DNA of 43,175 bases, taken from the IMG/VR virus record IMGVR_UViG_3300025899_000001, positions 1-43,175 of that record; one strand, 5' to 3'. Each line of letters opens with the position of its first letter. The first letter of the stretch is position 1. Below the pieces are notes generated by a model. It did no database searches, was not told where the DNA came from, and saw nothing but the letters and a program-made list of their open reading frames with translations. The position numbers and the translations under genes are program-made. Of the stretch, positions 929 to 43,175 are shown in pieces. Source of the DNA: a virus.

Positions 929-1237
929 ATGCACCCCAGCGGGCAGACTGTCGCAGAATATTTTGATATAGTAGAGGTTGGCGTCTACCTGGGCATCATC
1001 AAGCCGGTGCCGGAAGGCGTCTCGGGCGAGCGAGCCCTGCGGAATCAACTGGCGCGAGTCTACCGGCTCGTCGCCACCGGCCGCATCCCGGTCATCCGCA
1101 TGGGGTCTCGACTCTACTTCGACAAGTCCGCAGTGGATGCGGCGTTGCGTTCAGGAGCGCACCAGTCATGTCACCAGTCACCAATCCCGTCGCACGTACT
1201 CCGATCGTTGAGTCCACCCCCGACACCGGACGAGTAA
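929..1237 (+). CDS. Excisionase-like winged-helix DNA-binding protein (HTH_17/AlpA type)
   Basis: The 102-residue product contains an excisionase/MerR-like core at about residues 42-72. A recognition helix (RVYRLVATGRIPVIRMG) is followed by the typical wing and helix (SRLYFDKSAVDAAL). Small proteins of this kind beside tyrosine recombinases act as recombination directionality factors: they bend att DNA and favour excision. The ATG at 929 was chosen because it follows the upstream stop by 5 bases and leaves the full domain. The last 70 bases overlap the integrase start at 1168, which indicates tight coupling. A purely transcriptional regulator is the alternative. Confidence 0.72.
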   Translation: MHPSGQTVAEYFDIVEVGVYLGIIKPVPEGVSGERALRNQLARVYRLVATGRIPVIRMGSRLYFDKSAVDAALRSGAHQSCHQSPIPSHVLRSLSPPPTPDE

Positions 1238-2292
1238 TCACCCTCGTTCCGAAACCCAAGAAGGCCAAGGCGCAAAAGATCCCGACCGGCTACTACAGGC
1301 GGAAGGGCGGCGACGTGTGGTACTACCGCCGCAAGATCGATGGCGTCCAGATCAACGAGTCCACCGGCTTCACCGACCTGGAGAAGGCGCGGCGGCGCGG
1401 CGCAGAGTTGGAGGCCGCGCAACGCGAGGGGGATCTCGGGTGGACGACGCAAAAGATGCCGACGCTGCGGCAGTACTTCGCCGAGACGCCCGAGGTCAAT
1501 CTGCGCGTGAAGGATTTCGTGGACGCGATCGATCCGCACGGCAAGGTCCGCCTCAATCACGTCACCAAGGATCTGTGCCGCAAGTGGATGATCGAGCGGC
1601 TCAAGGCGCACACCAAGTACGACCGGCCGTTCACCCCGGGCACGGTGCGCGTCGAGTGCGCGATCATCAAGGCGTGGTTGCAGCATGTCGTGGGGCACAA
1701 GCAGTTGCTCCGCGAGAACCCGTGGAAGGGGATCAAGCTGCCCAAGAAGTCGGTCAAGAAGCGGTACCTGCGATCGGGCGACGAGGAAACGCGGCTGTTC
1801 GATGTCCTCAACACGTTCGACGCCGAGATCGTCCGAGCGGTACGCATCCTGATCGGCAGCGGACTTCGGATCTCGGAGTTCCTGGGGACGCGTCCCCGTG
1901 ACGTCCAGCACGCGACGATCGGCGTGCGGGGCGAGGTCGCCAAAGGGGGCTACTCCCGCAACGTCCCGATCCACGCCACCGTGGTCGAGCACGTCGAGGC
2001 GCAACGCGAGGCGCGGGGCCTGGAACCCTTCTCGACCGACCCGCTGTTCACCATGACGGCTTCCAGTCTGGCGAAGCGGCTCAAGCGGGCCTGCGTCCTG
2101 GCGGGCATCGAGCAACTCACCCCGCACGATCTCCGGCGCACCTACGGCACGCGCATGGCGTTTAAGGTACCGGCGAAGGTGCTCCAACTCCTGATGGGCC
2201 ACAAGCAGATCAGCACCACGTTTGAGCACTACAACGTGGCGGAGGAATGCACGCTGGGAGCCCTGGTGGAAGCGGCCGGACAGATCGTCTAG
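1168..2292 (+). CDS. int: Tyrosine-type site-specific recombinase (phage integrase)
   Basis: The 374-residue product has the complete tyrosine recombinase catalytic set: R234 (IGSGLRISE), K259, H320 and R323 (HDLRR), H345 (MGHKQ) and nucleophile Y355 (FEHYN). Residues 40-90 form an arm-binding-like basic domain (GYYRRKGGDVWYYRRKIDG), and 100-190 a core-binding SAM-like domain. It catalyses attP x attB integration through a 3'-phosphotyrosine intermediate. The ATG at 1168 has AGGAG upstream and the shared ACCAGTC leader, and lies inside the end of the excisionase-like gene. The downstream region 2293-2574 carries direct repeats suited to arm sites, so attP is probably there. No key residue is missing, so it should be active. 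Confidence 0.97.
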   Translation: MSPVTNPVARTPIVESTPDTGRVITLVPKPKKAKAQKIPTGYYRRKGGDVWYYRRKIDGVQINESTGFTDLEKARRRGAELEAAQREGDLGWTTQKMPTLRQYFAETPEVNLRVKDFVDAIDPHGKVRLNHVTKDLCRKWMIERLKAHTKYDRPFTPGTVRVECAIIKAWLQHVVGHKQLLRENPWKGIKLPKKSVKKRYLRSGDEETRLFDVLNTFDAEIVRAVRILIGSGLRISEFLGTRPRDVQHATIGVRGEVAKGGYSRNVPIHATVVEHVEAQREARGLEPFSTDPLFTMTASSLAKRLKRACVLAGIEQLTPHDLRRTYGTRMAFKVPAKVLQLLMGHKQISTTFEHYNVAEECTLGALVEAAGQIV

Positions 2293-3283: not shown

Positions 3284-4867
3284 ATGCTGCCACCTCCTGT
3301 GGCTTGCGGGGCCCCGCCTACCTTTGAGCAGTGGCGGGCGGGGCAACCGGAAGCGATCACGTTCATTGTCGATAGCCCGCATCGGTTCAACGGGCTCGTC
3401 CTCCCCACTGGGGCCGGGAAGAGCCTTATCGCCGCCACCCTCGCCACGCTCACCGGCTGGCGTACGGCGATCCTCACGAGCACTAAGGGCCTCCAGGATC
3501 AAATCGGCTCCGCGTTCCAGACGATTGGCCTCACCGATCTGCGGGGCCAGGGGGCGTACCGCTGCCGTGCGCTCGACCTGGGTGGGTTGTACGCCGAGTA
3601 CCGAAGCGAGGGGAACCAGTGCGACGTCGGGCCCTGTAAAGCGGGACTCCCGTGCGCGTGGCGAGATGGCGGGTGCGGGTACTTCGACGCCATCAGCCAC
3701 GCCAAGCGCACCAAGATCCTCGTCACGAATTATCAGGCGTGGATGCACCAGGGCGCGGTGGGCGACGGGCTCGGGGAGTTCGATTGCCTGATCCTCGATG
3801 AGGCCCATGCCGCGCCGGAGGAAGTCGCCGGGTACCTGACGAGCACGATCACCCTGCGGCAACTCGCCGAAGTGGGCATGACGGCTCCGGGGAGTACCGA
3901 GGCGATCGTCTGGACGGCCTGGGCGAACGACCACCGGAAGGATCTCACCCGGAAGATCGACGCGCTCACCAAGACCGCGAAGGAGCGGCGACTCTCCCCT
4001 GTCGAGATGCGCGAGGTGCGCTCGCAGAAACAGACGCTTCGGGTCATCGAGCGGCTGGCGGATGCGAAGCCCGATGAGTGGCTCGTGATCGAGAGCGAGA
4101 AGGGGTACAGCTTTCACCCGCTGGAGATCGGGGCGCACGTCGAAGGCGCACTCCTGAAAGGGATCCCGCGCATCGTGTTCACCAGTGCCACGCTCGCGCC
4201 GAAAACGATCGACAGCCTCGGGATCAACGCGTCCTCGATGGGGTGGTACTACCAGCCCTCCACGTTCCCCGTGGAACGTCGGCCCGTGATCCATGTGGCG
4301 ACGGTCAGGATCGATCACCGGCTCGACGCGGCCGGGGCGAAGTTGTGGTTGATGCGGCTCGATCAGATCCTCGGAGCCCGGGGCGATCGCAAGGGCATCA
4401 TCCACACGGGCAGTTACGAGCGGGCTAAGCTCATCTATAACCACTCGGAACACCACGCCCGGATGATCTTCCACGAGCGAGCGACCACCCGCGAGATGGT
4501 CGCGAAGTTTCGAGCAGCGGGGCCCGGGGCCGTGATGGTGAGCCCGAGCCTGACGACGGGGTTTGATTTTGCGGGCGAGGCGTGTGAGTACCAGGTCGTA
4601 CTCAAGGTACCGTGGCCGGACTCGCGTGAGCCGGTGATCGCGGCGAGGACCGTGAAGGACAAGGACTATCCGGCGTACCTCGCGATGCAGGATCTGGTGC
4701 AAGCAGTCGGGCGCGGGATGCGGAGCGAGGACGATCGCTGCGAGACCCTGGTGCTCGATGATCACGTCCGCTGGTTTGTCGGAAAGTACCGACGCTTTGC
4801 CCCGCAGTGGTTCCTCGATGCGTTCCGATCGGTGCTCACGATCCCCGCACCTCCACCGAAGCTATAA
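3284..4867 (+). CDS. XPD/DinG-family superfamily 2 DNA helicase with Fe-S-type cysteines
   Basis: The 527-residue product has Walker A PTGAGKS at 41-47 and a DEAH box at 172-175 (LILDEAHA). A cysteine cluster lies between them (C94, C113, C118, C124, C131), where XPD, Rad3 and DinG helicases carry a 4Fe-4S cluster. Motif VI is near residue 480 (QAVGRGMRSEDD). Family members unwind DNA 5' to 3' using ATP. With no polymerase or primase in the genome, it probably remodels forks or recombination intermediates for host-driven replication. It starts 4 bases after the small membrane gene. The stop codon lies inside a perfect TATAAT (4863-4868). Confidence 0.93.
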   Translation: MLPPPVACGAPPTFEQWRAGQPEAITFIVDSPHRFNGLVLPTGAGKSLIAATLATLTGWRTAILTSTKGLQDQIGSAFQTIGLTDLRGQGAYRCRALDLGGLYAEYRSEGNQCDVGPCKAGLPCAWRDGGCGYFDAISHAKRTKILVTNYQAWMHQGAVGDGLGEFDCLILDEAHAAPEEVAGYLTSTITLRQLAEVGMTAPGSTEAIVWTAWANDHRKDLTRKIDALTKTAKERRLSPVEMREVRSQKQTLRVIERLADAKPDEWLVIESEKGYSFHPLEIGAHVEGALLKGIPRIVFTSATLAPKTIDSLGINASSMGWYYQPSTFPVERRPVIHVATVRIDHRLDAAGAKLWLMRLDQILGARGDRKGIIHTGSYERAKLIYNHSEHHARMIFHERATTREMVAKFRAAGPGAVMVSPSLTTGFDFAGEACEYQVVLKVPWPDSREPVIAARTVKDKDYPAYLAMQDLVQAVGRGMRSEDDRCETLVLDDHVRWFVGKYRRFAPQWFLDAFRSVLTIPAPPPKL

Positions 4868-5299: not shown

Positions 5300-5315
5300 C
5301 GGTACGCAACCTGCT
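5300..5315 (+). promoter_or_regulatory. Sigma-54-like promoter element, CGGTACGCAACCTGCT
   Basis: This is one of three identical 16-mers in the genome. GG and GC are 10 bases apart, as in -24/-12 (sigma-54) promoters, whose consensus is TGGCACG-N4-TTGCW. It lies in the 73-bp gap before the gene at 5365, about 50 bases from its start codon. It would drive the recombination genes 5365-7186. An operator for a phage regulator is the alternative. Confidence 0.6.
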
Positions 5316-5364
5316 GTCCCTCTTCCCGCTGCGCGATCGTAACCGCGCACTGGAGGTGACGAGT

Positions 5365-6183
5365 ATGGACGGTGCGCTCAGTCTCAGACCATCAGACGCG
5401 CAAGCGGGCGCGTTTCTCGATGACGTAGACGTGACCCTCAAGGAATGCCGCTTCGTGGTGTGGGACTACATGGGCAAGGCGAGCAAGCCCTCGACGGCCC
5501 TCAAGATCACCATGGAAGATCCCGACAGCATCACGCACGAGCAGTACTACTCGGCCGGGGATCCCGACAAGGTACTCCCGAGCCCTGACGGCAAGACGCT
5601 GATCCCCCAGGCCGGGGCGACGGGCCTCAACAACAACACCAATGCCCTCGCGTTCATCTCCTCGATCATCAACGCGGGATTCCCCGAGGACAAACTCGGG
5701 AGCGATGCGAGCGTGTTCGACGGCCTGGGCGCACACGTCAATCAGGTCGCGCAACCCAAGCGGCAGGGCCTGAAGGATCAGAAAGAAGGCAAGACGTACC
5801 TGCTGGTCACCAAGATCACCCGACTGCCGTGGGAAGCCGCGCCTGTGAAGCCTGCGAAGGGGGCTCCTGTGGCGAAGGCGAGCCCTGCAACTACGGCGGG
5901 CCCGCGTCCGGTCCAGCCTCCGATGAGTCAGGCAGGACAGCCCGGGGGCGGCAACGGCGACGGAGTACTGACCGAGAAGGCTCGCGCCACGGTGATCTCG
6001 ATCCTCACCGAGAAGGGTGGGACCGTGCCGCGATCGAAGCTCTCCCAGGAAGCGTTCCGACTCCTGGCCTCAGACCCCGACCGCAACGCCATCGTCAAGC
6101 TCGTGTATGACGATGCGTTTCTCCAGCAGTCCGTGGCCGAGGGCGTGTTTGCGTTCGACGGGACGACGGTGAGCCTCGGGTGA
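5365..6183 (+). CDS. Putative ssDNA-binding/recombination accessory protein, 272 aa
   Basis: Residues 10-160 form an SSB-like beta-rich domain with motifs such as DVTLKECRFVVWDY and DVSVFDGLG-type sequence (SVFDGLGAHVN). A Pro/Ala/Gly-rich linker follows (about 165-205), then a C-terminal winged-helix-like domain (about 208-272: LTEKARATVISILTEKGG and KLVYDDAFLQQSVAEG). Proteins of this layout occur in phage recombination modules beside nucleases and Sak4-type ATPases. The ssDNA-binding role is inferred from that context and the domain plan. The ATG at 5365 was chosen because GGAGGTGA precedes it and the coding signal begins there. The downstream nuclease overlaps by 4 bases. Confidence 0.6.
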   Translation: MDGALSLRPSDAQAGAFLDDVDVTLKECRFVVWDYMGKASKPSTALKITMEDPDSITHEQYYSAGDPDKVLPSPDGKTLIPQAGATGLNNNTNALAFISSIINAGFPEDKLGSDASVFDGLGAHVNQVAQPKRQGLKDQKEGKTYLLVTKITRLPWEAAPVKPAKGAPVAKASPATTAGPRPVQPPMSQAGQPGGGNGDGVLTEKARATVISILTEKGGTVPRSKLSQEAFRLLASDPDRNAIVKLVYDDAFLQQSVAEGVFAFDGTTVSLG

Positions 6184-7205: not shown

Positions 7206-7221
7206 CGGTACGCAACCTGCT
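7206..7221 (+). promoter_or_regulatory. Sigma-54-like promoter element, CGGTACGCAACCTGCT
   Basis: This is an exact copy of the element at 5300-5315 and 43025-43040. It lies in the 47-bp gap before the ATPase gene at 7234. With the -12 base at the C of GC, transcription would begin about 2 bases before the ATG. The mRNA would then be nearly leaderless, which is an argument for also considering an operator role. Confidence 0.55.
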
Positions 7222-9159: not shown

Positions 9160-9188
9160 TTGACAATCATATGATTCTATGATACTCT
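9160..9188 (+). promoter_or_regulatory. Sigma-70-type promoter with an internal 10-bp palindrome
   Basis: TTGACA (9160-9165) is followed by a 17-base spacer and TACTCT (9183-9188). The spacer contains the perfect palindrome ATCATATGAT (9166-9175), with another ATGAT half-site at 9178-9182. This is an unusually AT-rich patch in a GC-rich genome. A repressor bound there would block polymerase. It would drive the small-gene run starting at 9211. Confidence 0.6.
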
Positions 9189-9210
9189 TATATCTGGAGT
9201 GACGAATCGT

Positions 9211-9417
9211 ATGAGACAGCGAGGCTTGATCAAGACGGAGTATCGAGAGACGAGTGGGTACTGGATCGAACTCATCGACGGATGGGAGAACGGGCTCGAC
9301 CCTGGCACACACGGGATCGTTGAGGACACCAAAGGCGAGGCGTACCGGACATTGAAGTACGCACGGCCCTGCGACTGCGCGGACTGCAAGGCGCGGCTGG
9401 AAGCGAGGGGACAGTAA
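9211..9417 (+). CDS. Small Cys-motif protein, 68 aa
   Basis: The 68-residue product has a basic N-terminus and a compact Cys cluster near the C-terminus, CDCADC. The ATG at 9211 is preferred because CTGGAG lies at ribosome-site distance; a GTG at 9199 would directly abut that site. It follows the sigma-70-type promoter at 9160. The TAATG junction with the next gene suggests coupling. The function is unknown. Confidence 0.65.
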   Translation: MRQRGLIKTEYRETSGYWIELIDGWENGLDPGTHGIVEDTKGEAYRTLKYARPCDCADCKARLEARGQ

Positions 9418-9638
9418 TGGCTGCGGGGATTCTCCAGAAGCCAGGGACTAAACTCGGCGCGTGTAAGACCAAGTGTAAGCATAAGGACTGCGCGAGCCTC
9501 AGAGAGATCGAGGCTAGCCCGTGCGGGATCTGCGACGAGGCGATCGGGTGCCTCCGCAGGTACTACAGTCGCGAGTCGGGTGGGTACGTCCACGCGGATT
9601 GCTTTGAGGACTTCATCGAGCAGCACGGCCATGAGTAA
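9417..9638 (+). CDS. Small zinc-finger-like protein, 73 aa
   Basis: The 73-residue product has eight cysteines: CKTKCKHKDC near residues 16-25, CGICDEAIGC near 36-45, and HADC near 58. The spacing fits two zinc-binding knuckles. Its start overlaps the previous stop by one base and its end overlaps the next gene by 8 bases. It probably contacts nucleic acid or protein, but no family was recognised. Confidence 0.65.
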   Translation: MAAGILQKPGTKLGACKTKCKHKDCASLREIEASPCGICDEAIGCLRRYYSRESGGYVHADCFEDFIEQHGHE

Positions 9639-9945
9639 ACGCGGCTACTCTCGCGCCTTCACCCCGCGCTCGGAGACCTACGGCCGGTACCTCCTCGACA
9701 AGGTACCGGCGACACTCTGGTCCGACGTGCGGGCCAAGTGCAAACGTGAAGGGATCTCGGTGCGCGGGCTGATCCTCTCGCTCCTTAAGGCGTGGCTCGA
9801 CGGTCCTGCCCCGGAGGCGCGAAAGGTACCGAAGCAGTTCACGATGATGGGCCTCAATAAATGCAACGCAGAAAAGGCGTGGCTCGACGGCTTCGACGCT
9901 GCTACGACGCTGGCTCAAGGTGGGGGTAACGCACCCTCCGACTAG
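9631..9945 (+). CDS. Small ribbon-helix-helix-like DNA-binding protein, 104 aa
   Basis: Residues 17-55 resemble a ribbon-helix-helix fold: a strand (RYLLDKVPATLWSDV), a helix (WSDVRAKCKREG) and a second helix (SVRGLILSLLKAWLDG). Such proteins bind operators as dimers. The ATG at 9631 overlaps the previous gene by 8 bases. It is one of two ribbon-helix-helix candidates in the genome (the other is at 40548), so it might regulate the palindrome in the promoter at 9160. Confidence 0.55.
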   Translation: MSKRGYSRAFTPRSETYGRYLLDKVPATLWSDVRAKCKREGISVRGLILSLLKAWLDGPAPEARKVPKQFTMMGLNKCNAEKAWLDGFDAATTLAQGGGNAPSD

Positions 9946-9946
9946 T

Positions 9947-9962
9947 TGGTACACAACCTGCC
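9947..9962 (+). promoter_or_regulatory. Sigma-54-like promoter element, TGGTACACAACCTGCC
   Basis: This variant of the 16-bp element differs at three positions and keeps GG-N10-GC. It begins 2 bases after the upstream stop codon and ends 15 bases before the ATG at 9978. It would drive genes 9978-11842. The predicted transcription start would leave only about 5 leader bases. Confidence 0.5.
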
Positions 9963-13460: not shown

Positions 13461-13831
13461 CGGAGTGAGAACCGAGACACATGCGTGGGAACGGTCGGCG
13501 CGTGGAACGTGACCCCGCGTCGGAGTTGGAGGTGATAGTGCTCGTTGGGTCGGCCCGGGTGCTCGTGACTCCCGTGGAACTCGGGCCCGAGCCGCGTCAG
13601 GAGGTCCGCGAGGAACTGGTGCTGGTCCCGGGCCGTGATGAGGTCGCGACACCGGAAGTCGATCGCTTCCCCTCGGGCGTGGCCGGAGTACACCGCGTGC
13701 GCCCCGTCTGTCGAGGAGAGCACGATGACCGTGTAGTCGTGGTACCGGGCGTACTCCTCGACCGTGGCGAGCAGGTGTAAGAGAGCGGGAGTGATGATGC
13801 CGAAGTGGCAACTAGCGCGGGCAAGCAGCAT
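13457..13831 (-). CDS. M15-family DD-peptidase-like protein, probable endolysin, 124 aa
   Basis: Zinc-peptidase motifs of family M15 / hedgehog-type DD-peptidases are present: SGHARGEAIDFR (H51, D58) and EHYHLQ (E97, H98, H100). Phage members cleave peptide cross-links of peptidoglycan during lysis. The protein is only the catalytic domain, with no cell-wall-binding part and no signal peptide, so it would need a holin for export. The ATG at 13831 abuts a GGTACGCAGCCTG sequence that resembles the promoter-like element. It lies late in the leftward arm, after the internal virion proteins. Confidence 0.82.
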   Translation of the reverse strand: MLLARASCHFGIITPALLHLLATVEEYARYHDYTVIVLSSTDGAHAVYSGHARGEAIDFRCRDLITARDQHQFLADLLTRLGPEFHGSHEHPGRPNEHYHLQLRRGVTFHAPTVPTHVSRFSLR

Positions 13832-13846
13832 ACAGGCTGCGTACCA
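13831..13846 (-). promoter_or_regulatory. Degenerate copy of the GGTACGCA element
   Basis: Read leftward this is TGGTACGCAGCCTGTA, matching the repeated element except that the GC at -12 is GT. It touches the ATG of the peptidase gene, so a promoter at this exact place would start inside the gene. It may be a decayed copy or an operator half-site. Confidence 0.3.
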
Positions 13847-27927: not shown

Positions 27928-28905
27928 TTAGTTGATCGCGGTGATCACGCCCAGGCGACGAGGGTTGTTGGAGTAGAGGTTGCAGATCGTCATCACCTTA
28001 AAGATGTCGGCGGTCTGGTTCGCAGGATCGACGCTCGGGAAGCCCTTCATCCAGTAGCCGGACTGGTAGGCGAGCTTCAGGTTGGTGGTCTGGAGCATGT
28101 AGAGGGCCCCCGCCGTACACGCCACGTCGTACGAGATCGGGATGTCCTTGAACATCAGGGCATCCGACTGGAAGCCCGTGAGCCCCTTGTCGCCCTTCGA
28201 TTCCCGGTTGTACCGCTCGTTCTTGGTGAGGAGCGACTCAAAGCCCTCAAACACCGCCATGTCGGTCACGGCGAAGCCGGGGTGCGCTCCGGTGACGCCG
28301 TTGCTGCACAGGTTGTACATGTGCCGCATCGCCGCCTGGAGGTTGTCGAACGCGGTCGTGGTCTTGGTCCCGACGCTCTGCTGGTTGCGCCAGAACGAGA
28401 AGGCCGACCGGCTGATCCCGCCGACCGTGCCGGTCGCCGGAGTGGACGACACGAGGTACCCGAGCCCGCCCATCACCTTGCCGCCCGTGCCGGTACCGTC
28501 GCCAAACATGTCCGTGTTGAGGACACGCTTGAACGTGTTGCGGAGGTTTTCGAGTTTCGCGGCCAGCAGATCGAACTTGCGGCCCGAGCCCTGGTTCTTG
28601 GCGCGTTCCAGTTCCGACATGACCACCGTGCCCGCGTACTCCTTCCAGCCGAAGGAGAACTCATCGAACACATCCACGCGGGTCGTGTCGAGCAGATCGA
28701 GATCGGTGTACGCCTTGACGGTCGTGTTGACGGCGTACTCGATCGAGCCGTTGATGGAGCGCCCGCCATCGATCGACTTGAACCCGCCGCCCTCCTGCAT
28801 CCGGTTCAGGAGCCAGTAGTCGTTGTGGATGTTGTCCTCGGGCTTGGTCCCGACGACGTTCTCCCACGCTTGCGCGATTGTCTGTCCTACGTTGGGATCG
28901 GCCAT
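27928..28905 (-). CDS. Major capsid protein (HK97-like fold expected), 325 aa
   Basis: The size, the position after a scaffold gene, and motifs such as IAQAWENVVGTKPEDNIHN, YAGTVVMSELERAKNQGSGR and LKLAYQSGYWMKGFP match major capsid proteins of short-tailed phages (AKO59007-like). Residues 100-140 contain a long helix (KFDLLAAKLENLRNTFKRVL) typical of the spine helix. It is followed by an intrinsic terminator and preceded by the scaffold at 28933. There is no protease cleavage region of HK97 type; the scaffold is separate. Confidence 0.85.
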   Translation of the reverse strand: MADPNVGQTIAQAWENVVGTKPEDNIHNDYWLLNRMQEGGGFKSIDGGRSINGSIEYAVNTTVKAYTDLDLLDTTRVDVFDEFSFGWKEYAGTVVMSELERAKNQGSGRKFDLLAAKLENLRNTFKRVLNTDMFGDGTGTGGKVMGGLGYLVSSTPATGTVGGISRSAFSFWRNQQSVGTKTTTAFDNLQAAMRHMYNLCSNGVTGAHPGFAVTDMAVFEGFESLLTKNERYNRESKGDKGLTGFQSDALMFKDIPISYDVACTAGALYMLQTTNLKLAYQSGYWMKGFPSVDPANQTADIFKVMTICNLYSNNPRRLGVITAIN

Positions 28906-31796: not shown

Positions 31797-31826
31797 GGTC
31801 AGGCCCCTAGCAGCTTGTGTACCGTG

Positions 31827-34040
31827 TCACGCGTTCGGATCGGCGGCGAACGGACTTCCACCCCCAGGCAACTGCCCTGAGCGATCGGCCGCGTGCTTGG
31901 AGATGGGCTCGGTCTGTTCCGCCGCGCCTGGGTGCTCGGTGTCGCCCGGGCGTACCGAGTCTTTTGGCGGAGTGATGTCGTCAGGGAGCGATCCCATCGC
32001 TGTCGCTCGCCCCGCGAGGAGTACGGCGTTTTGCATCGTCTCCTGGCTGATCTGGTACCCCGACTGCTGGAGGATCTCGACGGCGAACGGGAATTGCGGA
32101 AGCCGAGGATCGAGATCCTGCGCCTGGATGCGGACCTGGACGTTGGGCTTGGGCGGGCCCTGCGGCGGCGGAGGCGCGACGAGCTTGTCGGGGTTGTAGC
32201 CCCACTTGGTCGCCAGCCGTCGAGCGAGTTCCATGCGGTTGATAAAGGGATCCCGAGCGGTGAGGTTGTAGAACGCGAGATCCTGTTGCCGGTCCTGCGC
32301 GGCATCGACGTGGACTTGGGAATCGGGGCGGATGGTGTACGCGAACCGGCCCGCGATCGTTTCCTTGTTCCACGAGACCCACAGTTTCGTGCCGTCGTCG
32401 CCCAGGATGTGCGTGGTCTGCTGGCGATCCGAGAAGCGTTGGATCAGGGCATCGAGCTTGCGAACCCCCGCGACGAAAAACTCGACCACCTTGGCCTGTT
32501 CCCCCGCGAGGCGCGTATCGACGGAGGACTGCATCGTCGCCACTTCGGTCGCGGTCCGCCGGGACTGATTCTGTGCGCCGGACTGATTGGGCCCCAGCGC
32601 GAGGGTGCGATCGATGTCGCGCTCGATGATCTCCTGGCCCGCGTAGGTCTCCTGGGAGAGGTTCGGTTTATTCCCCTGGAGCACCGGAGGCCGAGCGGCA
32701 TCGAGTCGCCCGCCCTCGACGGGGATCATCGGGCCGTACTTGCCGTTGGTGATCCGCTCGATCTTCTCGGGCGGGAGGATGTCCTCATCGTAGAAGGTGT
32801 ACGGGATCGAGGCGTCTCGCGACTTCAGCACCTGCCCTCGGTACTGATTGAGTTCGTCGGTGAGCGGGCGCGTCATCGCCGAGTCGGACGGGACGTGGTT
32901 GTCGTCCGGCACGTCGCGAAGCATGAGGACGTGGACGGGGTACCCCGGCATCGAGTCGCCCGTCAGACGCCCCTCCCGATCGAGGGACTGGTACGGGCAG
33001 TAGCGGTGCCGGACCTCGGCGTCGAGCCCCTGGAGAAACACGCACTCAACGACTCGCTTTGGGTGAAACGCGGTCGGGTTGAGCGTGGGCTCGTAGTAGT
33101 ACATCTGGATCCCCGAGACAAAGGGATCGTAGGTCTGCCCTGCGCCGACACCCCCGACTGTGTTGCGCTCGTCGCGCCGGATCGGGTTCGGGTCGTCCTT
33201 GGTCGCGCCTTTGTAATCGACCGGGATGCCCTCGCCGTACTCGCGACGAGCGGCCGAGAGCGGGATCTTGAACTTCACCGCGATCCACGGGGCTTTGTCG
33301 AAATCGGTCGATCGGAAGTCAGCCGGGATCATCAGCGACTTGGGCGACAGGCGGGACCAGAAGTACTCCTCGTACACCGGCACTTTCACGGTGATCGGAG
33401 CGCCCGTCATCGGGTCCGGCGTCTGCACGTCCTTGGTGTACGCGGTGTACCCGAGGTGCGTGACGCCCCAGCCAGCCGGGACGAGCACGTCGAGGATCGC
33501 CGCCTGGATGGTGCGTTTCGCGTTCACCCCGTCTGGCGAGAGCAGTTGATTGAGCACGGTCTGGTGCAGCGAGATCGCCGCCGAGAGTCGTTGCTCCTGG
33601 GTTGCGCCAGTCGGCAGCGGAACCGAGGACAAGACGAGATCCGAGAGTGGCTCGGTCGGGGTGAGTTGCACCTGCGCGGTGTCAAACCAGAGTTGCGCCT
33701 TTTTCTGCTCGGCCTGACGGAAATCGACGTTGGTGTTGACTTCGTAATCCTCGCGGTCTTTCGCGAGCGTCTCAGGCGGGGGCGCGTAGGCGTCGAGGTT
33801 CTTTTTCCACAACGGCGCGTACCGATCCGTCTCCTGATCGGACGCGGTGAACCAGGACTTGATCGCCCCGCGCTGATCCTCGGTGAGAGGCGGCAGGGTG
33901 AGCGATTCGGGATCGGGCGCTGGAGCGGCGACGGGCCCTGCGCCTCCCATAGGTGGAAGCGCAGGAACACCCATGGCAGACGGTTCCGTCGCCGCCCCAC
34001 CTGGAGGCGGCATCGGCGGTGCGAGCGTCGGTGGGTACAT
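31827..34040 (-). CDS. Portal protein, 737 aa
   Basis: Length (737) and position between the large terminase and the head genes match P22-type portals. The N-terminal 60 residues are Pro/Ala-rich. The core includes DREDYEVNTNVDFRQAEQKK (clip-stem region), WGVTHLGYTAYTKDVQ, and a long helical C-terminal half with ERDIDRTLALGPNQSGAQNQ and RRTATEVATMQSSVDTRLAG, typical of portal wing and stem helices. The portal forms the dodecameric vertex through which DNA is packaged. Its ATG overlaps the terminase stop (TGATG). Confidence 0.88.
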   Translation of the reverse strand: MYPPTLAPPMPPPGGAATEPSAMGVPALPPMGGAGPVAAPAPDPESLTLPPLTEDQRGAIKSWFTASDQETDRYAPLWKKNLDAYAPPPETLAKDREDYEVNTNVDFRQAEQKKAQLWFDTAQVQLTPTEPLSDLVLSSVPLPTGATQEQRLSAAISLHQTVLNQLLSPDGVNAKRTIQAAILDVLVPAGWGVTHLGYTAYTKDVQTPDPMTGAPITVKVPVYEEYFWSRLSPKSLMIPADFRSTDFDKAPWIAVKFKIPLSAARREYGEGIPVDYKGATKDDPNPIRRDERNTVGGVGAGQTYDPFVSGIQMYYYEPTLNPTAFHPKRVVECVFLQGLDAEVRHRYCPYQSLDREGRLTGDSMPGYPVHVLMLRDVPDDNHVPSDSAMTRPLTDELNQYRGQVLKSRDASIPYTFYDEDILPPEKIERITNGKYGPMIPVEGGRLDAARPPVLQGNKPNLSQETYAGQEIIERDIDRTLALGPNQSGAQNQSRRTATEVATMQSSVDTRLAGEQAKVVEFFVAGVRKLDALIQRFSDRQQTTHILGDDGTKLWVSWNKETIAGRFAYTIRPDSQVHVDAAQDRQQDLAFYNLTARDPFINRMELARRLATKWGYNPDKLVAPPPPQGPPKPNVQVRIQAQDLDPRLPQFPFAVEILQQSGYQISQETMQNAVLLAGRATAMGSLPDDITPPKDSVRPGDTEHPGAAEQTEPISKHAADRSGQLPGGGSPFAADPNA

Positions 34041-35671
34041 CAGCGTTTCGCCGGACTTCGCCGCCAGTACCGCGAGCCGGGATGGCGATCGCCTTTGGTG
34101 CGAAGGTAGCCGATGGTGTCGGGGGCGAAGGTTGATTGCAAGGGAGTCCTCGCCGGAGTCGGCCGACTCATCACGCCATAGCGCAAGGCGTCAGCCGCGT
34201 GATCGTCGCCCTCGGTGTTCACGTCCTCGGGGTCTTTCGCGTCACTGATGAGGCCAGGAAGGGTGCGCCGGAGGTACCGACAGGACGGGTCGATCGTCAG
34301 CCAGGGCCGACCGTCAGGGGCTTTCGAGAACCAGTGTCGAAGCCGTTGCCACCCGAGATTGCGAGCGTTGTCTCCCGGCTGGCAGGGGACGTGCGCTCGG
34401 GCAAAGGTCTCGGCGACGGATTCCCCGACGTGCCCCGTTTTCGAGAAGGTCGAGGGGTCCATCGTGGTGTAGATCGCTTTCCAGCCGTGATCTTTGGTCT
34501 CGCGATCGACGTGTTCGGCGACATCCGCCGCGAGGGTCTGTTGAAAGCGGTACTCGTGCGCGACGTGGACGTGGCCGTCAGGGAGAATCGCGAGCCAGAG
34601 ACAGCACCCGGGCGCGTTGTACCCCCAATCGAGGGCTCTCAGGATGCGCGTATCGCGAGGGATGTCGATCCGCTCGATGTGGCCTCCGTTTGACACGTCG
34701 CGATCGGAGAACTCCGGGAAAAACTGCCCCGTGATCGCGGACCAGTCCCCGTTGAGGAGTTGATCGCGGCGTTGGGGCGGGAGCGGCCCGAGTCGTTTTT
34801 CGTAGGTCCGAAAGGTGCCATCGGGATCCATCAGGTACGGGTTGTCGTACAGCCGCGCCGGGATGTAGATGAAATCGTCGGGGTCGTAAAAGGGATCATC
34901 GTCCCGCGAGATCGTTTTCGTGATCCAGCGATCAACGACGTACAGCGTGTGTGCCCCGCCCGGGTTGGAGGTACAGCGGACGAGTGCCGTGACTCCCTCC
35001 TTAGAGCTACGCGCACGAGACATGATCTCGTTGGCCTGGGACTGCTCCAGGGTCGCGAGTTCGTCAATATCGATGCAGTCATATTCGATCGAGAGGAAGC
35101 GGAGTTCGTCACCCGGGTGTTGGCAGTGCCCGCCTCGGATCAGGGAACCGTTGGGAAAGCGGATCTCGTTTTCGACCACGCGCCCGCCAAACGGGGTGAC
35201 TTCGGTGCGGGCGAGATCGAGGTGGTGCTCGAAAAGCTCAGTGGCGAGTCGCCGCATGAGGAGCACGCGGTACCCGGGCAGCGTGAGGCAGCGTTTGTAC
35301 GCATCCCAGCGTAGACCCGTCGATTTCGAGCCTCCAGCGGCCCCGCCCCACAGGACGTTCGGGGTCGTCGCGTTGTGGAGGAGCACCTGTTTGGGGGTGG
35401 GCAGGTACAACCACCGCGTCGGCCCATCGGTGACCTTCCCGCGCTTATCGACGGCGGGGATCCCGACGCCGTACGTCTCCCGATCGCGGCGGTACTGCGC
35501 GATCTGTGCCGGGGTCCAGTGCGAGAGCGTGAGCCAGTGCGTCCAGTGCGCCCACGTCCAGCGCGAAACGTGCGGCCACGCCTGGGTACCATCAAGCGGG
35601 GGGAAGTACGTGACGCCAGGAACGAGATCCCCAGCGGAGACGGCAGCTTTGAGCGGCGAAGAGGAACGCAT
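34040..35671 (-). CDS. terL: Terminase large subunit, 543 aa
   Basis: The ATPase has Walker A GGAAGGSKS (residues 109-117) and Walker B CIDIDELATLEQ near 200. The C-terminal RNase H-like nuclease shows ALDWGYNAPG and later DDHAADALRYG, each carrying acidic metal ligands. TerL drives DNA packaging and cuts concatemers. The ATG at 35671 has GGAGGGGAG upstream. The first 80 residues are Trp/His-rich (WTWAHWTHWLTLSHWT), an unusual N-terminal extension. It overlaps the portal gene by one base. Confidence 0.96.
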   Translation of the reverse strand: MRSSSPLKAAVSAGDLVPGVTYFPPLDGTQAWPHVSRWTWAHWTHWLTLSHWTPAQIAQYRRDRETYGVGIPAVDKRGKVTDGPTRWLYLPTPKQVLLHNATTPNVLWGGAAGGSKSTGLRWDAYKRCLTLPGYRVLLMRRLATELFEHHLDLARTEVTPFGGRVVENEIRFPNGSLIRGGHCQHPGDELRFLSIEYDCIDIDELATLEQSQANEIMSRARSSKEGVTALVRCTSNPGGAHTLYVVDRWITKTISRDDDPFYDPDDFIYIPARLYDNPYLMDPDGTFRTYEKRLGPLPPQRRDQLLNGDWSAITGQFFPEFSDRDVSNGGHIERIDIPRDTRILRALDWGYNAPGCCLWLAILPDGHVHVAHEYRFQQTLAADVAEHVDRETKDHGWKAIYTTMDPSTFSKTGHVGESVAETFARAHVPCQPGDNARNLGWQRLRHWFSKAPDGRPWLTIDPSCRYLRRTLPGLISDAKDPEDVNTEGDDHAADALRYGVMSRPTPARTPLQSTFAPDTIGYLRTKGDRHPGSRYWRRSPAKR

Positions 35672-35698
35672 CGGCGCTCCCCTCCGCAGGATGTGTAC

Positions 35699-35971
35699 CT
35701 AGTTCGGGATGACGTTGGCCTCGCCCTGGATCGACTGGAGTTGCTCGACCGAGTTCCAGCACCCCGCCGCGTACAAGATCACCATCGAGACTTCCTCGTC
35801 GCTGTTGACGCGGGTGATCATCAGGGACTGGTGCTCATCGATCGAGCACATGGCGTTGTGGAAGGTACGCGGGGTACCGTCTCCGAGGACGACGACAAGG
35901 GTGGAGCCGGGAAAGCGATCGATGCGGCGGATCTTCGGTTCAGATTGCTTTCGGGGTTTCGCTGATGGCAT
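35699..35971 (-). CDS. Small hypothetical protein before terL, 90 aa
   Basis: A basic N-terminus (PSAKPRKQSEPKIRRIDRF) precedes a compact beta-rich domain (STLVVVLGDGTPRTFHNAM) and a C-terminal helix. GAGGAGATCACC supports the ATG at 35971. The family is unknown. It sits between the palindrome at 36034-36071 and the terminase, so it could be a packaging accessory or regulator. Confidence 0.62.
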   Translation of the reverse strand: MPSAKPRKQSEPKIRRIDRFPGSTLVVVLGDGTPRTFHNAMCSIDEHQSLMITRVNSDEEVSMVILYAAGCWNSVEQLQSIQGEANVIPN

Positions 35972-36032: not shown

Positions 36033-36072
36033 GGCACGGTGCGTACCAGTGATTGCCGGTACGCACCGTGCG
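36033..36072. promoter_or_regulatory. 14-bp perfect palindrome with two back-to-back GGTACGCA elements
   Basis: GCACGGTGCGTACC (36034-36047) and its exact complement (36058-36071) flank 10 bases. Each arm contains GGTACGCACCGTGC, a relative of the element CGGTACGCAACCTGCT, pointing away from the other. It lies in the gap between the genes at 36081 and 35971. It could be a bidirectional promoter, a dimer operator or a transcribed hairpin. No T run follows, so it is not an intrinsic terminator. Confidence 0.6.
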
Positions 36073-36335: not shown

Positions 36336-36901
36336 GAGAGACCTCCTTGGTCGGGTCCGCCCGTGTGCAGGGTGAGTGCCAGTTGGCATGGCGGTACTAC
36401 ATGCTTCTTGTATCAACTAGTGCCTAAATGTACGTACCTTTATTAGGTATAGCAAACCATGGTCGAGCCGTATACGTTTTCGCGTGTACGACGGTGTTTG
36501 TGAGGGTGCGCCGGTACTAGTAAGAATTAGTAGTAAGGCGGATCGTCGTTTTCTCGCATTTTTCCGTATGCACCTCAGCCATACGGAATCCTTTCTGAAA
36601 ATTGATCGCCCTTTGGAGTCCCAGGCATTTTGTGGGGTGAGTACTTTGTCGCCGCCAGGAGCCTGGGGGGAGGGTGCCCCGGCTCGGCGAGGCGAAGCTC
36701 AAATGTCGGTTCGCTCGCCCTTGGGCGACTCGACGCGGGCGCGGGCTCGGCTGGCGCGGGCTCGCAGTACTCGGGATACTTTGTAGTATTCCCCTAACCT
36801 ATTGTAAACACTACACTTGCGAGCACACCTCAAGCGAGGTGCGACACCTATTGCACGCGTGCAGGTGTGCGATCGACGTGTGCGATCGGCGATCGGGCGA
36901 G
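36336..36901. other. 566-bp noncoding, AT-richer region beside the small terminase (candidate pac/cos or control region)
   Basis: No convincing gene is present. Features seen: a sigma-70-type promoter (36427-36455, minus); an inverted repeat TTCCGTATG/CATACGGAA (36562-36570, 36580-36588); a near-palindrome GGGATACT/AGTATTCCC (36773-36794); a hairpin CACCTC-AAGC-GAGGTG (36826-36841); and the 12-bp palindrome TGCACGCGTGCA (36852-36863) inside CACCT/AGGTG. A 21-codon frame on the minus strand (36517-36582) has a good GAAAGGA site but cannot be confirmed. Packaging sites usually lie at or near terS, which makes this the best place for one. Confidence 0.5.
36427..36455 (-). promoter_or_regulatory. 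Sigma-70-type promoter for the terminase-portal genes
   Basis: Leftward, TTGCTA (36455-36450), a 17-base spacer and TACATT (36432-36427) give 4 of 6 matches in each box, in an AT-rich patch. The predicted start is about 85 bases before the gene at 36335. It may add a second, unregulated input to the late arm. Confidence 0.4.
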
Positions 36902-37550: not shown

Positions 37551-37566
37551 AGCAGGTGCCGTACCA
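37551..37566 (-). promoter_or_regulatory. Sigma-54-like promoter of the late arm, TGGTACGGCACCTGCT
   Basis: This is the closest match in the genome to the sigma-54 form TGGCACG-N4-TTGCW, with correct GG-N10-GC spacing. It points leftward to the small terminase gene, with about 90 leader bases. It overlaps the GTG start codon of the divergent gene at 37556, so activity of one arm could affect the other. Confidence 0.6.
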
Positions 37567-42341: not shown

Positions 42342-42686
42342 GTGCGGGACTTCATCGGGATCGTCGGCACGCGATACACACGCGACGATCGACAAAAAAA
42401 CGGGGCGCGGGAGACTCAGGAGAATCCTCCGCACCCCTGGCCCGCTCGCCTCGGTGGTAGCCGGGGATCAAGCGGGTTCTCGTCGGCGTCGTCGCTCGTC
42501 GCTCGTCGCCAGTCACATCGGCACGTCGCGTCGTCGCTTCACGTTCGTCGGGAACCCGCCCCCTCGCTCTACCTTCCGAAGGCCAGTCCACGCGATCACG
42601 CAAGCGAGGCAGCGATGCCAGTCGTCCCGGCCCTATCTTGTACACACGGCACGCGAGGGAGTCAACGGGGAAGGTTTCCCGGATGA
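42342..42686 (+). CDS. Low-confidence coding frame, 114 aa
   Basis: This frame begins with GTG and ends overlapping the next ATG by 4 bases (ATGA), which is the main point in its favour. The first 30 residues look protein-like (RDFIGIVGTRYTRDDRQKNG). The rest is Arg/Ser/His-rich, as in chance frames. There is no clear ribosome site. It may be only the leader of the next gene. Confidence 0.28.
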   Translation: MRDFIGIVGTRYTRDDRQKNGARETQENPPHPWPARLGGSRGSSGFSSASSLVARRQSHRHVASSLHVRREPAPSLYLPKASPRDHASEAAMPVVPALSCTHGTRGSQRGRFPG

Positions 42687-43018
42687 ACCCTCGCGACGAT
42701 CGGCCTCGCGTACTAATCCGCGTGATCATCTCCCCACACGCGCAACGCGGCGAACGGCTCGCGGTGTACGTCGATGCTCGGACAGTCGGCAATCCGAGTG
42801 TCCTGGTGTACTCGCTGACCCACGATCACTGGCGCGTCGAGCCCCATCGGCAGTTGATGTGGCGATCGCGGCGCGGCACACCGACCGAGCGAGCGGAGGC
42901 GCACGAGACGCTCGTGCAGATCGGCGAGCACGTCCGGATCTTGCAGAGTGCGCCTCGGGCGATCGACGCGACGATCGACGGAGCAGACGAGTCGCCTGCT
43001 GACGACTCGGACGACTAG
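42683..43018 (+). CDS. Hypothetical protein, 111 aa
   Basis: A basic N-terminus and strand-rich core (RVLIRVIISPHAQRGERLAV, SVLVYSLTHDHWRVEP) are followed by a helical part (ERAEAHETLVQIGEHVRILQ) and an acidic tail (DGADESPADDSDD). The acidic tail resembles those of ssDNA-binding or mimic proteins, but no family was recognised. GGGGAAGG lies upstream of the ATG. It is the last gene before the promoter-like element at 43025. Confidence 0.55.
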   Translation: MNPRDDRPRVLIRVIISPHAQRGERLAVYVDARTVGNPSVLVYSLTHDHWRVEPHRQLMWRSRRGTPTERAEAHETLVQIGEHVRILQSAPRAIDATIDGADESPADDSDD

Positions 43019-43024
43019 CAAACA

Positions 43025-43040
43025 CGGTACGCAACCTGCT
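43025..43040 (+). promoter_or_regulatory. Sigma-54-like promoter element, CGGTACGCAACCTGCT
   Basis: This exact copy of the element lies 6 bases after a stop codon and about 120 bases before the gene at 112 (across the circular junction). It would produce a long structured leader and drive the integration genes and those beyond. Confidence 0.6.
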
Positions 43041-43048
43041 CGTGGGGA

Positions 43049-43175
43049 AGCGTCCCCGGGACGGTGAGAGCGCGACTGGCCGGTTGCTGAAGTGACTGGC
43101 AGTGACCCCCACGATCACCGCGCACCGTCCCTCGGGGACATAGCAGAAAGGAACCAGTCATGGACGGATTCACGC
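43049..43175. repeat. Terminal direct repeat, right copy
   Basis: This is identical to bases 1-127. Bases 43160-43175 are the beginning of the same gene that is complete at 112-396, so no additional gene is counted here. Confidence 0.93.

Follow-up and report, generated by a model that had tools for sequence, protein, structure and literature searches.

The DNA analysed here (IMGVR_UViG_3300025899_000001; 43,175 nucleotides, referred to throughout as the window) represents a circular phage genome: its first 127 bases recur as bases 43049–43175, and the circle measures 43,048 bp. The GC content is 64%, and noncoding DNA makes up 9.9% of the genome, the small share that had been assumed at the outset. 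We call the phage temperate because it carries a tyrosine integrase gene (1168–2292, plus strand). The window also encodes a helicase and a recombination block, and its late arm, which runs leftward, contains the genes for the terminase large subunit (34040–35671, minus strand; phrog_979, 9e-32) and the portal protein (31827–34040, minus strand; phrog_156). An HTH protein is encoded at 929–1237, and a 111-aa protein of unassigned function and without known domain at 42683–43018 (plus strand). Searches of the window for tRNAs and Rfam families gave no match. Directly after the integrase gene, TGTCGCAAAAGGTGTCGCA repeats extend over 2299–2545; these are probably integrase arm-type sites flanking attP.

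Shortly upstream of gene starts, and on their sense strand, lies a 14-bp element with the family consensus GGYACRCANSSTGC, of which the window contains ten gene-directed copies: at 43025, 5300, 7206 and 9947 on the plus strand and at 37551, 36366, 36033, 35685, 31809 and 13831 on the minus strand. The original prediction described five of these, namely three of CGGTACGCAACCTGCT at 43025, 5300 and 7206, all of which are exact, with TGGTACACAACCTGCC at 9947 (plus strand) and TGGTACGGCACCTGCT at 37551–37566 (minus strand), both of which are present; its list was, however, short of five gene-directed copies and of an inverted copy at 36057. Site A (43025–43040) stands at the head of the early operon beginning at ATG 112, since the record is circular and this ATG, which has a Shine-Dalgarno sequence, lies 120 nt away across the joint. 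Site B (5300–5315) is followed after 50 nt by ATG 5365, with Shine-Dalgarno GGAGG, the first gene of the recombination/replication block. At site C (7206–7221) the ATG of a Sak4-like AAA_24 protein (7234) lies 13 nt downstream, and at site D (9947–9962) ATG 9978 lies 16 nt downstream, both without a Shine-Dalgarno sequence. On the minus strand, site G (37551–37566) heads the leftward late arm, 101 nt from ATG 37450 of a terminase small-subunit-like gene, and overlaps GTG 37556, which is doubtful as the true start of the divergent open reading frame. Site H (36366–36381; TGGCACTCACCCTGCA) is followed after 31 nt by GTG 36335, and site I (36033–36048; TGGTACGCACCGTGCC) after 62 nt by a first ATG with a Shine-Dalgarno sequence. 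Site J (35685–35700; AGGTACACATCCTGCG) lies inside a 27-nt gap, 14 nt from ATG 35671 of the terminase large subunit, and site K (31809–31824; CGGTACACAAGCTGCT) inside a 30-nt gap, 13 nt from ATG 31796, which is without a Shine-Dalgarno sequence. Site L (13831–13846; TGGTACGCAGCCTGTA) extends onto the ATG at 13831, where a 124-aa lysis gene, possibly peptidase-like, begins. Every element is oriented toward the next gene, as had been claimed for the initial five, except the plus-strand copy at 36057–36072 (CGGTACGCACCGTGCG), which has no gene in its direction. Of those five, four are intergenic as claimed and 37551 only partly so, given the doubtful GTG. One further match to the phage weight matrix described below, at 1838, falls inside the integrase gene. 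Site I and the 36057 copy face each other at 36034–36071, forming a perfect inverted repeat of 14 nt around a 10-nt loop; this pair also occurs in two relatives (L007 and L008), and its second arm is degenerate in a third (L009).

These copies are far in excess of what base composition would produce. With up to three mismatches to the 16-mer, eight matches are found in the window against 0.39 expected and at most two in shuffles. The original prediction proposed a weight-matrix scan with shuffled controls, and a matrix trained on 22 distinct sites from other phage contigs only recovered the sites far above the shuffles: 12 window sites reached 15 bits or more, up to 24 bits, against a mean best score of 12.6 in 60 dinucleotide shuffles, and scores above 12 bits occurred 15 times in the window against an average of 0.9 per shuffle. 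Eleven of the 12 best sites are intergenic (37551, with its doubtful GTG 37556, only partly), compared with a noncoding share of 9.9%. When over-represented gapped words upstream of genes were sought separately in the window and in a 42.6-kb relative (G001), GGTACGCA came first in both. An exact 16-mer scan of the collection returned 36 contigs, most of them with one copy, as expected by chance.

Relatives were gathered from IMG/VR by terminase and helicase searches, as contigs 75–100% identical to the window proteins. At least a dozen of these relatives have the element in orthologous positions, and the sites fall into 12 families (A–L), which lie upstream of the first early operon, an ssb-like gene, the Sak4-like gene, genes 9978 and 10448, a DNA methyltransferase-like gene (in L087), the terS-like gene, two small late genes, the terminase gene, gene 31796 and the lysis-like gene. 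Site A is conserved in L084, L086 and L081, where it follows a homologue of gene 42683–43018; site B in L086, L087, L035, L036, L082 and L127; site C in six relatives, 12–16 nt from the start; site D in L082, L087, L124 and L125, 13 nt from the start; and site K in seven relatives. Site L is kept in L082 although its upstream flank is not conserved. For the nine families measured, pairwise identity is 85% within the 14 bp, as against 34% in the 20 bp upstream and 39% in the 12 bp downstream. Across 40 distinct sites, conforming to the consensus GGYACRCANSSTGC, the bases G, G, A, C, T and G are invariant, and conservation extends to C7, A8 and C10 of the spacer. In phages whose terminase is 40–47% identical the element is absent. 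That the copies are mere chance repeats has next to no probability left: it is contradicted by the shuffles and by the de novo word enrichment in two genomes, and orthologous conservation already refutes it.

The distance from the last C of the element to the start codon is either 12–16 nt or some 18–122 nt, the longer distances usually being accompanied by a Shine-Dalgarno sequence. The distribution has a minimum of 12–13 nt and a pile-up at 13 nt, and below 12 nt lie only site L (0 nt, and lacking the C) and two automatic start choices, a GTG at 4 nt (L082) and an ATG at 6 nt (L086), which we rejected as contradicted by conserved N-termini or synteny. Short-distance starts without a Shine-Dalgarno sequence are those at C (7207), D (9948) and K (31810) and at the L087 and L082 sites. 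Upstream of the Sak4-like gene the element ends 12–16 nt before an ATG that lacks a Shine-Dalgarno sequence, and this ATG is real because several relatives share the N-terminus MPTPP-FLPGFTR. As 16 of 44 starts have no Shine-Dalgarno sequence, so that the feature is not unique to genes with the motif, we use it only jointly with the distance floor. A transcription start 11–13 nt downstream of the GC would impose a floor of 12–13 nt. Two observations sit outside this pattern: site L breaks the spacing rule, ending on the ATG without its C, and at the terminase sites a Shine-Dalgarno sequence lies between motif and ATG, which a start 12 nt downstream would leave untranscribed. By eye, no -10 hexamer was seen between element and ATG in the sequences inspected. 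Sigma-70-like sites number one in 30–43 kb (2.4 expected) and none in 0–14.5 kb (2.2 expected), if anything fewer than shuffled sequence gives. From the repetition, position, orientation, conservation and minimum start distance of the motif, all of which are observed directly, we infer that the element is likely to be a promoter, with start sites set at a short distance downstream.

The contacts essential to sigma-54 are the GG, the A-T pair that follows it at -23, and the TGC (PMC3844500), and the transcription start lies 19 bp away from the middle of the 17-mer, which puts it roughly 12 nt past the C (PMC4591121). The GG and TG of the phage element are kept in all 40 distinct sites and the C in 38, which gives the GG-N10-GC arrangement of -24/-12 spacing, and an A stands two bases after the GG (-23 in the numbering of PMC3844500) in 40 of 40. 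The columns that match sigma-54 contacts are in fact those that are invariant or nearly so in the phage. A matrix was built, ignoring the spacer, from the sites, 135 in all, that ChIP-seq identified in E. coli (PMC4591121). With this matrix the ten sites rank 2, 4, 5, 8, 10, 12, 14, 15, 16 and 39 of 86,144 positions, with a mean of 10.3 bits in register against -7.1 in the next best register. Their scores span 7.0–14.1 bits, compared with 6.5–19.2 for the bound E. coli sites (5th percentile 10.2, which five of the ten reach). With a stricter matrix from 27 Salmonella promoters the ranks are 1, 2, 4, 12, 22, 39–41, 45 and 147, and the ten sites score below the Salmonella promoters themselves. 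It had been supposed that the best match heads the late arm; the best motif site is instead 36366 (CTGGCACTCACCCTGCA), with the late-arm site 37551 second. At least 6 of 20 sigma-54 matches in the window and at least 5 of 11 in G001 are directed at gene starts, as against 0–2 among 10–28 in a control of six related phages without the motif. The original prediction of -24/-12 promoters on both arms is supported by conservation, orientation, minimum start distance and this independent sigma-54 matrix.

The likeness has limits. Sigma-54 promoters usually have C after the GG and T as the first base of TTGC, although these are tendencies and not invariant. The phage sites do not follow this usual consensus: T follows the GG in 37 of 40 sites, compared with C in 27 of 27 Salmonella promoters (PMC3844500) and T in 26 of 135 E. 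coli sites. The -12 element, for its part, opens with C or G at every one of the 40 sites, never with T; in E. coli it opens with C or G at 17 of 135 sites. The conserved C7, A8 and C10 of the spacer go beyond what sigma-54 requires. By our estimate a random motif would match sigma-54 this well with a probability of the order of 0.5–1%, offsets and strands being allowed for and other consensus sequences uncounted. Given a chance fit of this size, sequence likeness alone is insufficient, and the case adds the distance floor and a comparison of late promoters. Among known promoters, E. coli norV (CTGGCACGCAATCTGCA) is identical to the window consensus at 12 of 14 positions, and the element has in common with norV and astC (CTGGCACGAACCCTGCA) the GG-N10-GC spacing, the invariant A two bases after the GG, and the TGC. 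As in E. coli sigma-54 promoters, it lies in sense orientation upstream of operons with a predicted start about 12 nt downstream. Unlike them, it has T for C after the GG, CC or CG in place of a T-rich stretch before the TGC, a conserved spacer, many nearly leaderless genes and many copies in one phage, and comes without a recognisable enhancer or activator. The K. pneumoniae nifH promoter (CTGGTATG...CCCTGCA) shares both sequence departures, T after the GG and a C-rich stretch before the TGC; it differs in needing NifA and an upstream enhancer, and it is not a phage element.

The late promoter was compared across divergent relatives as the best sigma-54 match upstream of the terS-like ATG. 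In the window this is TGGTACGGCACCTGCT, with its C at -101; in the 300 nt upstream of terS in L009 it is TGGCATCGATGCTGCT at -85, in L008 CGGTACTCACCTTGAA at -84, and in both L081 and L012 TGGTCTGTGTCCTGCT at -101. The position of site G is thus kept in these four relatives despite a changed sequence. The L009 and L081 sites have lost three or four of the bases fixed in the phage consensus and keep the GG, the TGC and the flanking T, a pattern that recognition by sigma-54 would predict and recognition of the entire 14-mer by a phage protein would not. Upstream of terS, L084 has no such sigma-54-type site and L016 only a weak one (GGTAC...TGC at -77). We consider this comparison the most telling indication for sigma-54.

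A phage sigma-like or RNA polymerase-binding protein could instead redirect host RNA polymerase to GGYACRCANSSTGC, the resemblance to sigma-54 then being convergent or fortuitous. The motif is indeed narrower than sigma-54 demands, with its CA.C spacer, its T after the GG and the absence of T at the opening of the -12 element, and a hint of lineage-specific recognition comes from L127, where both sites carry GTGTGC. Candidates for such a factor would be the HTH protein (929–1237) or the 111-aa protein (42683–43018); the latter is the sole well conserved gene, in three divergent relatives, of the motif-free rightward operon at 37.6–43.0 kb, and directly precedes site A in the window, L081, L084 and L086, although its structure model is poor (pLDDT 48) and uninformative. 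However, the scanned open reading frames contain no single-subunit RNA polymerase or known sigma domain (PF00940 was not matched in the window or relatives, and the control search likewise gave no match), and the late promoters of L009, L008 and L081 are off the phage motif yet have sigma-54 elements. The promoters of T7-type single-subunit polymerases are alike in placing one highly conserved short element per module, but no unassigned open reading frame in the window is big enough to encode such a polymerase. On balance we regard a phage-encoded reader as unlikely, if still the leading alternative.

The other serious rival is a phage repressor that binds the asymmetric 14-mers and silences the lytic genes of the prophage, as in cluster A mycobacteriophages. 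The stoperators of that cluster lie between the genes of a temperate phage as numerous short sites that are asymmetric and follow the direction of transcription (PMC9283540, PMC6550527), and monomeric repressors reading an asymmetric site are known (PMC9283540). The element here resembles them, as an oriented, intergenic, multi-copy sequence of 13–14 bp in an integrase-bearing phage, and a site that ends on an ATG, as at 13831, would suit an operator. Operators would be expected to have no fixed distance to the start, whereas we find a sharp 12–13 nt minimum with a peak at 13 nt and Shine-Dalgarno-free starts, a floor that this reading leaves unexplained and that favours a promoter. Few separate sigma-70-like promoters lie near the sites, the match to sigma-54 is in register, the sequence differs from that of the cluster A sites, and the scanned open reading frames contain no cI-like, stoperator-type or other known-family repressor, although small uncharacterised proteins remain. 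This makes a stoperator system less probable again than a phage-specific promoter. An element acting in the mRNA at translation starts would account for the many copies 12–16 nt upstream of an ATG. Start-associated sequences of this kind in cluster K mycobacteriophages include the ribosome-binding region. They are similarly short elements repeated near start codons (PMC3203893), but the 14-mer has no Shine-Dalgarno character and copies of the same sequence lie 31–122 nt from starts that have their own, separate Shine-Dalgarno sequence, and a role in translation is therefore very improbable.

Weighing these readings, host sigma-54 is the best-supported single reader, with the element as a core promoter at most module heads (probability about 0.58). 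Host RNA polymerase carrying sigma-54 would contact GG-Y-A-C at about -25 to -21 and TGC at about -14 to -12, at promoters heading most modules, namely the recombination/replication, packaging, structural and lysis genes. Transcription would start 11–13 nt downstream of the element, and with such a start several mRNAs would be leaderless or nearly so and others would have a leader with a Shine-Dalgarno sequence. Closed complexes of sigma-54 require an AAA+ enhancer-binding protein and do not open without an ATP-driven activator. No Sigma54_activat (PF00158) domain was found in nine phage records, a control being positive in 14 of 14 genomes, and no enhancer-like word was shared among the 250 nt upstream of the sites, although enhancers may be single or distant. 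Since sigma-54 needs an activator and none was found in the phage, a host activator would time the lytic modules. The proposal that sigma-54 drives both arms is supported as to promoter geometry, with host sigma-54 and an enhancer-binding protein as the putative drivers.

The identity of the host was approached through prophages and relatives. The terminase, alone and as a 15-member alignment, found no relative in 84,980 genomes, and phages and plasmids searched with the integrase, helicase, terminase and capsid yielded remote relatives only. The only cultured relatives of the capsid protein (27928–28905) are 27–31% identical and include phages of Bradyrhizobium, Stenotrophomonas and Myxococcus (Mx8, Mx9), which suggests a Gram-negative host. 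With 0, 0 and 1 matches, these three phages show no family of motif copies before genes. In the open-access literature searched we found no description of a phage run through sigma-54 promoters in such a manner. At a little under even odds, we tentatively propose that in this temperate soil phage lineage host sigma-54 promoters, many of them leaderless, control nearly all lytic modules, early and late. Neither productive infection nor prophage induction would then proceed unless a host enhancer-binding protein were active, which would tie both to a particular physiological state of the host. If so, the timing of lysis and lysogeny would be handed to a host stress or nutrient regulator, and rpoN and activator mutants would offer a simple handle on how soil viruses read host physiology. 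Even with a phage protein as reader, this would be an undescribed, highly conserved promoter-like element, with about 40 distinct sites as a clean test set.

Some local features of the window and its relatives were observed alongside. In L127, the gene-start sites at 3907–3920 and 5356–5369 are both GGTACGCAGTGTGC, a lineage-specific change in the -12 half. A three-gene block at 9160–9945 has no homologues in any relative checked, has its own sigma-70-like promoter (TTGACA-N17-TACTCT, 9160–9188) and looks like a recently acquired moron; its last gene (9631–9945) is ribbon-helix-helix-like, and was dropped as a candidate regulator of the element because it is missing from all relatives checked. 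A more distant relative of 43,722 bp (G014; L139–L141) has the palindrome TGTAATCNATTACA in about 17 upstream regions, which is a different genome-wide regulatory element within the same phage group.
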